Positions 13,068 through 50,613 of a stretch of 64,000 nt of DNA are shown piece after piece. Both the position numbers and the translations under genes were made by a program. Within the stretch, counting starts at the first letter, position 1. Each line of letters opens with the position of its first letter. Origin of the DNA: Alphaproteobacteria bacterium. Its GTDB lineage: Bacteria > Pseudomonadota > Alphaproteobacteria > UBA8366 > Aestuariispiraceae. Under the pieces are notes generated by a model. The model saw nothing but the letters and a program-made list of their open reading frames with translations, was not told the origin of the DNA and made no database searches. The DNA lies in the NCBI GenBank assembly GCA_033344895.1, contig JAWPMN010000001.1:1798001-1862000 (forward strand), read 5' to 3'.

Positions 13068-13159
13068 CGCCTTTCGATCAAGGCAAACCGTCGGTAACGG
13101 CGGGACGCAAAGCCTCCGGCCCCGGCGCGTTCACGGGGTAGCGGGGTTGCCGAAAAGCG
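13068..13159 (+). promoter_or_regulatory. cyclic-di-GMP-I (GEMM-I) riboswitch
   Basis: The segment matches the GEMM-I aptamer closely: AGGCAAACC at 13080-13089, a P2 stem closed by a GUAA tetraloop (13095-13098), the near-invariant GGGACGCAAAGCCUCCGGCC block (13102-13121), and GGUAGCGGGGUUGCCG (13137-13152). P1 can form between CGCCTTTCG (13068-13076) and CGAAAAGCG (13151-13159). The 3' strand of P1 ends about 6 bases before the purine-rich TGGAAA that serves the GTG start at 13177, so control may act on ribosome access rather than termination; I see no terminator hairpin in between. Confidence 0.93.
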
Positions 13160-13176
13160 AAGACTGGAAACAACGC

Positions 13177-13713
13177 GTGACGCCGAAAGCTGTACGCCCG
13201 ATGGGTTTTGACCGCCTGCTTCTCTATACAATGATCGCCTTTTTCGGGGCGTTGCCGATCATCCTGATGCCGTTATTCGGCGACCAGGTCATCGACGCCG
13301 TGGAGGAAATCTCCGACACCGACGACGACCGACCGCGGGATGACGGCGAACCGGTGCGCCTGGTGACCGGCCCGCTGATGAACGTCTCCGGTCGGATCAA
13401 GGACGGCCTTGTGGCGGTGATCGATCTGCCGAACCGCACGACGGCGGATGCCCTGTGCGAGCAATCACCCTATCTGCACGACCGTCTGCAGGTGTTCGCG
13501 GCGGAGCACCCGTCCAGGCTGGATCAGAAGACCCGCATCTCGGGCCGGGACCCGGTCCTGATCCGGGCGCTGCGCGAGAAGTTTCCCGACATTCCGATGG
13601 ACGCCGTCCGGCTGACCGAACCGACGGCCTACAAATCGATCTATCCGAGCCGAGACGTCTATGAATGTCAGGGCCTCAGCTATCGGCGGATCGCCCAGAA
13701 ATCCCATCAGTAG
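13177..13713 (+). CDS. riboswitch-controlled membrane-anchored protein of unknown function
   Basis: A 178-residue protein with one N-terminal transmembrane segment (about residues 15-33, LYTMIAFFGALPIILMPLF), an acidic linker (VEEISDTDDDRPRDDGEP) and a soluble part of about 115 residues, presumably periplasmic. I recognise no family. The layout (one membrane helix plus a small outside domain) recalls FliL-type proteins, but sequence support is weak. The GTG at 13177 has TGGAAA upstream and lies just after the riboswitch; an ATG at 13201 is the alternative and starts nearer the helix. mmcB follows 56 bases downstream with its own promoter. The c-di-GMP aptamer suggests a role in motility, attachment or envelope change. 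Confidence 0.75.
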   Translation: MTPKAVRPMGFDRLLLYTMIAFFGALPIILMPLFGDQVIDAVEEISDTDDDRPRDDGEPVRLVTGPLMNVSGRIKDGLVAVIDLPNRTTADALCEQSPYLHDRLQVFAAEHPSRLDQKTRISGRDPVLIRALREKFPDIPMDAVRLTEPTAYKSIYPSRDVYECQGLSYRRIAQKSHQ

Positions 13714-13768: not shown

Positions 13769-14233
13769 ATGTCAGATCTGTCCCTGGAGACAGCCGAGCC
13801 ATCCGGTTTCGGCACGCGGCCCGATGCGACCTTCGCGGTGACGCGGGGCACGACGCGCCTGCTGCGGGAAATGGGGCTGGCCTGCCTGACGGAGGTGCCG
13901 CTGAAGACTGGCCGCCGGGTCGACATCATGGCCCTGGACAAGAAAGGGCAGACGACGGTCGTGGAGGTCAAATCCTCGCTGGAGGATTATGCGGCCGATT
14001 CCAAATGGGGCGAGTATCTGCCGTTCTGCGACCGGTTCTATTTTGCCGTTCCGACGGACTTTCCCATCGATATCTTGCCGGAGGAGGTCGGCCTGATCAT
14101 CGCCGACGCCTATGGCGCATCCATCGAGCGGACGGCAGCGGAAGGCAGCATGAATGCCAGTCGCCGGAAATCCCTGACCCTGCGGTTTGCCCGCCTCGCC
14201 GCGGAACGCTGGATGCGCATGGTGGATGCCTAG
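13769..14233 (+). CDS. mmcB: MmcB family DNA repair protein
   Basis: The 154-residue protein matches MmcB, an alphaproteobacterial nuclease-fold protein needed for mitomycin C resistance. A PD-(D/E)xK-like core is visible: RRVDIMALDKKGQTTVVEVKSS (about 49-70, with Asp and the E-x-K pair), then KWGEYLPFCDRFYFAVP (about 80-96) and GLIIADAYGA. The ATG at 13769 has AAAGGAGAG upstream. A LexA-type box 42 bases before the start supports SOS induction. The C-terminal tail (RRKSLTLRFARLAAERWMRM) is basic and may bind DNA. Confidence 0.92.
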   Translation: MSDLSLETAEPSGFGTRPDATFAVTRGTTRLLREMGLACLTEVPLKTGRRVDIMALDKKGQTTVVEVKSSLEDYAADSKWGEYLPFCDRFYFAVPTDFPIDILPEEVGLIIADAYGASIERTAAEGSMNASRRKSLTLRFARLAAERWMRMVDA

Positions 14234-49860: not shown

Positions 49861-50613
49861 TCAGGCGCTGGCGCCCGAGAACCGCTGATAGAAGGTCCCG
49901 CTGAGCCAGCCCAGCATGGCCCAGAAGATCGCCGCGACGACGATGGAGGCGGCCGCGAAATGGCCGGCGATTTCCGGCGGAACGCCGCCGCCGACCGCGG
50001 CCGGCTGCGGGGCGCCGACGATATGCGGAGCCGCCATCAGCAGAATGCCCAGAATGACGAAGGGCAGCTTGCGGCCGAAGACGGCAAGGGCCAGACCAAT
50101 CCCGGTCGCGATGGCACAGCCGATCCACCAGATCTGACGCGCGCCCAGTTCCGCGGCCATGCTACCGGGCACTTCCGGCGGAAGGCCCAGATTCGGGCCC
50201 AGGGTGAAGACGGTGAACCCGCCGATACCCCAGAGCAGGCCGGTCCGGCCGTTCATCGCGCCGCCATGGACGGCGAAGGCGGCCGTCAGCATCAGGGCGA
50301 AGGCGACGCCCATGACGATGTTGGTGCCGGCGGAATAGAGTGAGCGCTCGAGACCGTCTTCCGGTCCCCAGGCTTCCTCGTCGCCATGGGCCTCGTCGCT
50401 ATGGGCCTTGTAGAGGGTGAACCCGGGGAAGGCCCCGGTGCCGGCGACGCGGAAGACCGCAGCGTCCTGAACGGCCGCCTGTTCTTCGCCCGCATTCTCG
50501 TATTCCTCGGCATGGAGGATGATGGGGGTGGTGGTGAACTCCTGAATCGCGCTGATCGCTAGACCCGCGACGATGCCCGCGGCAAATGCCGCGCCGAAAA
50601 GGCGCTTGAACAT
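49861..50613 (-). CDS. cbtA: CbtA family cobalt transporter subunit
   Basis: A 250-residue membrane protein of the CbtA family, with about five transmembrane segments: the first at 5-25 (LFGAAFAAGIVAGLAISAIQ), then a long acidic periplasmic loop (HSDEAHGDEEAWGPEDGLER) and later segments at about 96-120, 126-142, 160-178 and 182-205. It is the larger part of a predicted cobalt uptake system controlled by B12. It follows cbtB by 18 bases under a cobalamin riboswitch. Confidence 0.9.
   Translation of the reverse strand: MFKRLFGAAFAAGIVAGLAISAIQEFTTTPIILHAEEYENAGEEQAAVQDAAVFRVAGTGAFPGFTLYKAHSDEAHGDEEAWGPEDGLERSLYSAGTNIVMGVAFALMLTAAFAVHGGAMNGRTGLLWGIGGFTVFTLGPNLGLPPEVPGSMAAELGARQIWWIGCAIATGIGLALAVFGRKLPFVILGILLMAAPHIVGAPQPAAVGGGVPPEIAGHFAAASIVVAAIFWAMLGWLSGTFYQRFSGASA

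Follow-up and report, generated by a model that had tools for sequence, protein, structure and literature searches.

Two kinds of described system bear on the locus reported here. On the RNA side stands the Vc2 aptamer, in which, according to the passages of these papers on which we draw, c-di-GMP is contacted by G20, A47 and C92 (PMC4744006), the run C46-A47-A48-A49-G50 surrounds the second of these bases, and an A at position 20 is the change that admits cAMP-GMP (PMC7288161). Canonical contact bases are no proof of tight binding, since the Vc1 aptamer possesses them and yet binds c-di-GMP weakly (a passage of PMC4744006). On the protein side stands FliL. The relevant passage of PMC6426602 describes FliLC as consisting of four helices and a single twisted sheet of four strands, similar to stomatin (4FVJ), and in Caulobacter the level of FliL is lowered by DgrA when the latter is bound to c-di-GMP (as stated in part of PMC4013479).

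In the window (the whole stretch of 64,000 nucleotides that was analysed, from a bacterium of the alphaproteobacterial family Aestuariispiraceae), these two sides appear to meet. Our preferred reading, to which we assign a probability of roughly 0.68, is that a canonical c-di-GMP-I aptamer occupies the presumed 5' UTR of a gene whose product is a second FliL-like (stomatin/SPFH-like) membrane protein, one that contains cysteines. The features concerned are the following.

13073..13155, + strand: c-di-GMP-I class aptamer as delimited by RF03167 (13072-13154 by RF01051); covariance-model matches
13082, + strand: equivalent of G20 of the Vc2 aptamer, G here; RF03167 alignment, numbering transferred
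13109, + strand: equivalent of A47, A here and G in the RF03167 consensus; mismatch column of the RF03167 alignment
13150, + strand: equivalent of C92, C here; RF03167 alignment, invariant in the 11 family aptamers
13166..13169, + strand: GGAA, candidate Shine-Dalgarno sequence, 7 nt before GTG 13177; sequence, identical in the relative G004
13177..13713, + strand, from GTG 13177: gene for the putative FliL-like single-helix membrane protein, 178 aa; open reading frame, dN/dS, homologue starts
13207..13266, + strand: membrane helix predicted over residues 3-22 (170-aa numbering); AlphaFold2 model
13348..13617, + strand: putative FliL-like region, residues 50-139 in 170-aa numbering; hhalign
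13456..13458, + strand: codon of invariant Cys86 (170-aa numbering); all rows of the 11- and 14-row alignments
13666..13668, + strand: codon of invariant Cys156 (170-aa numbering); all rows of the 11- and 14-row alignments
13769..14233, + strand: mmcB-like gene (PF06319), possibly co-transcribed, 55 nt downstream; Pfam match

The RNA is recognized by two covariance models: RF01051 (c-di-GMP-I) gives 70.8 bits, twice its cut-off of 35, and RF03167 (c-di-GMP-I-GGC) gives 66.6 bits, its cut-off being 59 and its E-value, computed for the window, 1.5e-13. Across the 4.64-Mb genome each model has this one match at E <= 0.001. By E-value, cmscan places RF03167 as the best family in the window, whereas RF01051 yields more bits and exceeds its own cut-off by much more. 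The alignment to RF03167 contains the GUAA (GNRA) loop and the conserved P2/P3 core. The original prediction of a GEMM-I class aptamer is borne out, the Infernal check that it proposed with RF01051 having given a score above the threshold and not below. The Vc2 numbering was put onto the window through the alignment, aided by the run C46-A47-A48-A49-G50 mentioned above. Position 47, just 3' of the P2 stem, is a conserved G in the RF03167 consensus and a mismatching A in the window; at position 20, where an A characterizes the cAMP-GMP (cGAMP) variant of GEMM-I, the window has G (13082). As all three contact bases are canonical, we treat the aptamer as canonical c-di-GMP-I: judged from its bases, it is of the canonical type, G20/A47/C92, and the RNA would be expected to bind c-di-GMP. 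The genome contains 21 GGDEF matches.

We take the name "GGC" to denote the base identities at positions 20, 47 and 92. Filing the aptamer under the RF03167 variant was rejected, base 13109 being A and not G. The label c-di-GMP-I-GGC can evidently go to aptamers without the variant base, which matters when orphan riboswitches are counted by best E-value. Those literature passages that name c-di-GMP-I-GGC use it as the name of a model or template and give no ligand there. A separate riboswitch in the window, of the cobalamin class (RF00174, 50860-51100 on the - strand, 91.5 bits), is followed by a long open frame with its start at 50613 that resembles, by eye, the cobalt transporter subunit CbtA.

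Aptamers of the c-di-GMP-I class are uncommon in Alphaproteobacteria, not foreign to them. Of 387 genomes in the class, 34 carry an RF01051 match, as do 22 of 263 genera; the original prediction therefore overstated their rarity. RF03167 gave 28 matches in 20 of 98 genomes (own included), with 13 matches, in 11 genomes, over the cut-off. We examined 51 aptamer loci, which are part of the class-wide RF01051 matches, and parsed 50 of them (L020 was left out); L071, L073, L076 and L078 repeat earlier places and were dropped from the locus set. Among the 50 parsed aptamers, position 47 is A in 47 and G in three (L023, L027 and L028, all from one genus, g11), position 20 is G in 49 and A in L017 alone, and position 92 is C in 49 and U in L010. 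The latter aptamer (L010:1501-1586, G076), with a U at the C92 position, an altered first P2 base and 59.2 bits with RF03167, is a candidate for altered specificity.

The genes found downstream of these aptamers elsewhere in the class include Flp pilins (PF04964; L012, L025, L026), LapG-like C93 proteases (PF06035; L005, L021/L073, L075, L080, L084; the L073 protease matches the NCBIfam LapG model below its cut-off) and a response regulator (L070). Functions of a c-di-GMP type are thus present behind aptamers of the same clan. Other loci have ParA-like ATPases (PF13614), identified by scan at L003, L008, L058, L060 and L065 and by eye at L064, L067, L068 and L077, and at several the downstream gene belongs to no family (for example L059, L061, L062, L069 and L079). 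In two cases (L023/L026 in G038:C416 and L025/L028 in G036:C648) c-di-GMP-I aptamers come in pairs, with some 350 nt separating the two members on a single strand; in each pair an A47 aptamer precedes a Flp pilin gene and a G47 aptamer precedes a short, hydrophobic, tryptophan-rich reading frame. In family f72, c-di-GMP-I aptamers lie immediately 5' of a short reading frame (L061, L066, L083), that of L061 encoding a 56-aa hydrophobic protein which by eye resembles the small L023 protein; genomes of this group have up to five aptamers each. In family f143, such aptamers (L079, L082) stand before the gene of a protein some 245 aa long whose start is signal-like; the L079 protein has no Pfam or NCBIfam family and the L082 protein has chance-level NCBIfam matches only.

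Within the Aestuariispiraceae, aptamer and gene travel together. The gene family is present in 13, and the aptamer in 11, of 14 genomes (own included); the aptamer occurs once per genome, in five of seven genera, and by coordinates all 11 lie directly upstream of a member of the FliL-like gene family, with RF01051 scores of 59.3-72.6 bits and invariant core bases. Whether homologues too would follow GEMM aptamers had been left as a question by the original prediction, and the answer is that they do. Two genomes (G010, G011) have the gene without the aptamer, one from the window organism's own genus (G005) has neither, and two (G008, G013) have extra gene copies without an aptamer of their own. 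These data define a protein family whose riboswitch stayed with it across five genera. No relatives of the window protein were found in viral contigs. Among the relatives of the window genome is Pacificispira spongiicola KN72, of a marine genus (Alphaproteobacteria, Rhodospirillales, Aestuariispiraceae), whose record (L086) encodes a protein that shares 57% identity over residues 19-170 of the window protein. The arrangement there matches that of the window, with an RF03167 match at 2820-2905 and the gene beginning 17 nt 3' of it, at 2923. A protein 85% identical to that of the window comes from a record titled "Mesoflavibacter sp." (L085, CP051228.1). Mesoflavibacter is a flavobacterial name, and the name of the record is probably wrong. 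One aptamer that precedes a homologous gene (L017:1501-1627, G009; 59.3 bits with RF01051) has A20, the change described as admitting cAMP-GMP in the passage of PMC7288161 cited above.

The gene was predicted to encode 178 residues, which agrees with the open reading frame from GTG 13177 to the stop at 13713; its distance from the aptamer, given originally as 18 bases, measures 21 nt. An alternative start at ATG 13201 would yield 170 aa. The stretch between the two starts is conserved in G004, and the ATG position is where the homologues of G002 and G003 begin. Comparison with G004 backs the coding assignment, the two genes differing at 57 synonymous and 27 nonsynonymous codons (dN 0.089, dS 0.797, dN/dS about 0.11): the gene is under purifying selection.

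The protein is likely a distant relative of FliL. As originally predicted, there is a single membrane helix (in the AlphaFold2 model) and no family assignment, the window protein having no Pfam or NCBIfam match even at E 10. None of the 14 family members reaches the Pfam cut-off for FliL (PF03748); at E <= 1, the Pfam model matches only the G010 homologue (E 0.69), the NCBIfam FliL model matches three of the 14 weakly (best E 0.067), and Pfam DUF587 matches two members with a best E of 0.015, better than any FliL match. When the 14 homologues, in which P19, L54, C86, D94 and C156 are invariant, were compared by hhalign with 19 FliL rows from related genomes (19 of 20 strong FliL loci, L105 being left out), the score was 30.2 (probability 53.8); 200 column shuffles, which leave a shared secondary-structure pattern uncontrolled, gave a mean of 11.3 (sd 2.2, maximum 20.0) with none reaching 30.2, and reversed FliL gave 10.4. 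Comparison with six FliL-like paralogues gave 42.4 (probability 89.1), the maximum of 200 shuffles being 17.3; this alignment comprises six of nine weak FliL matches, with L031 omitted as another protein by its look, L111 because it had been read in a wrong frame and L114 because it looked different. Weakly FliL-matching, single-helix paralogues (L108, L110, L112, L113, L115, L116) are present in several genomes of the order and, when profiles are compared, form a link between FliL and the riboswitch-associated family.

The 14-row profile, run against the 387 genomes of the class at E <= 0.01, matched 13 genomes, five in the family and eight outside. Seven of the eight outside matches are FliL proteins over the Pfam cut-off, with E-values from 2e-5 to 2e-3 that are counted per genome over 387 genomes and hence singly weak, the evidence residing in seven of eight being FliL; the remaining match (L123) has no Pfam match and, by eye, two similarly placed cysteines. 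An AlphaFold2 model built from five sequences (mean pLDDT 74, pTM 0.62) orders the chain as a terminal helix, strands 52-55 and 71-76, four helices and strand 135-139, and adds a strand pair, 152-157 and 160-165, that carries C156. Within the limits of a five-sequence model, these helices and strands are compatible with the description of FliLC. Foldseek found nothing in the PDB at E <= 0.001, and five of its 39 matches, not the top ones, are stomatin/prohibitin SPFH domains, 4FVJ included (E 4.5-7.5); by sequence, the best match among solved structures has an E of 0.81, and none is meaningful. Every one of the 14 family genomes also has a FliL over the cut-off, which in the window genome lies at 4.40 Mb, the window gene being at 1.81 Mb. 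Taken at the level of sequence profiles, remote homology of the protein family to FliL, not membership, is likely. The earlier view that the gene is no recognized c-di-GMP output is then probably wrong, given this kinship and the control of FliL by DgrA in Caulobacter (PMC4013479, in the part cited).

A simple scan revealed no terminator-like site between aptamer and gene, and a switch of the terminator type was set aside as unsupported. Folding of the window RNA gave a Shine-Dalgarno accessibility of 0.70 with P1 formed vs 0.71 with P1 forbidden, the start codon being mostly paired in every state. Formation of P1 lowered access to the Shine-Dalgarno zone at 23 of 23 modelled loci outside the family (of 39 parsed) and at eight of 11 family loci, a result partly built in because the "unbound" state forbade exactly the pairings at issue. 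A GGA starting no more than 3 nt from the 3' edge of the aptamer is found at 28 of the 39 parsed outside-family loci and at two of the 11 in the family; since GGA mostly adjoins P1 outside the family, its position makes translational control likely there. The candidate ribosome-binding site of the window is farther from the aptamer than at most of those loci. When partners were permuted, the flanks of P1 paired as well as observed in 161 of 2000 permutations with all 50 loci taken together, in 5 of 2000 with the family's 11 loci and in 1098 of 2000 with the other 39, figures from a weak test, as the family rows are related and the anchor is one base off in some rows.

Several other readings deserve consideration. 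The RNA could represent the orphan variant class c-di-GMP-I-GGC and sense another signal molecule, as might be surmised from RF03167 being the best family in the window by E-value, over its cut-off, and from 13 of its 28 matches (20 of 98 genomes, own included) passing that cut-off. We regard this as very unlikely: RF01051 scores 70.8 bits vs 66.6 with a much larger margin, the base at the A47 position is A here and in 47 of the 50 parsed aptamers, and G47 is limited to the three aptamers of genus g11 (L023, L027, L028). One could also envision a weak or decayed switch that leaves the gene effectively unregulated by the aptamer. Scores of 59.3-72.6 bits with RF01051 and invariant core bases in 11 family members point instead to selection for function and make decay unlikely, even though folding disclosed no clear expression platform in the window, in two family genomes the gene persists although the aptamer is absent, and Vc1 binds weakly despite its canonical contacts (PMC4744006, same passage).

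Other doubts concern the gene. If the riboswitch acted on transcriptional read-through, its main target could be the mmcB-like DNA-repair gene, and the membrane protein would be a passenger. Such an arrangement appears highly improbable, for in G006, G008, G009 and G013 it is the membrane-protein gene that follows the aptamer, with no mmcB found within 1.5 kb, and the simple scan showed no terminator-like site from aptamer to gene; what speaks for it is the position of mmcB, 55 nt downstream and on the same strand, and its presence within 1.5 kb of the gene at seven of 16 family loci. Finally, the protein might be an unrelated periplasmic single-helix protein whose similarity to FliL arose by chance, a reading that we hold to be fairly unlikely. 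It would explain the absence of a curated FliL match, the slightly better, weak DUF587 match in two members and the lack of a significant Foldseek fold match; against it, the profile scores exceed 200 of 200 shuffles for each of the two FliL-type alignments, and seven of the eight profile matches outside the family are FliL.

We return to the reading of a canonical aptamer that controls a FliL-like membrane protein. Under this reading, c-di-GMP would bind the RNA, and binding would stabilize P1 and alter the access of ribosomes, so that control would be exerted at translation initiation. The protein would be anchored in the inner membrane, its domain facing the periplasm and presumably held by a disulphide, and might modulate the flagellar stator, or some other complex of the membrane, as the cell decides between motile and sessile life. 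The locus suggests that c-di-GMP tunes the amount of a FliL-like protein through an RNA, a coupling rendered plausible by the lowering of FliL by DgrA with c-di-GMP in Caulobacter (PMC4013479, as above). What was an unknown protein behind a riboswitch thereby becomes a testable link from c-di-GMP to a FliL-like, stomatin-like membrane protein. A more daring and distinctly tentative extension is that the RNA lets c-di-GMP set directly the dose of a second FliL, held by a disulphide, which would gather around the stators (or around a different ion-conducting complex) and retune them in the motile-sessile switch. In the literature covered by our search, for the most part other than subscription papers, and in the portions of it available to that search, no report of a c-di-GMP-I aptamer with a FliL-like target was found.

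How does the locus compare with what has been described? With RF01051 riboswitches the window aptamer shares its score, secondary structure, GNRA loop and G20/A47/C92; it differs from them in having a FliL-like family as the downstream gene, and it thus adds to a known riboswitch class a member with a new target. It passes the cut-off of the RF03167 variant, with the best E-value, but has A where that variant has G at the A47 position, if the name marks position 47 as we presume. The protein has in common with FliL (PF03748) one N-terminal helix, a linker and a distant match over residues 50-139, and departs from it in falling below the Pfam cut-off, in its two invariant cysteines and extra C-terminal strand pair, and in being encoded far from fliL. 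The DgrA-FliL system of Caulobacter resembles the one proposed here in that c-di-GMP controls how much of a FliL protein an alphaproteobacterium contains; there, however, a PilZ protein does the sensing and FliL itself is the target, whereas in the window the sensor would be an RNA and the target a FliL-like protein. If this is true, the locus is an RNA counterpart of the Caulobacter DgrA-FliL route, so far in one alphaproteobacterial family.
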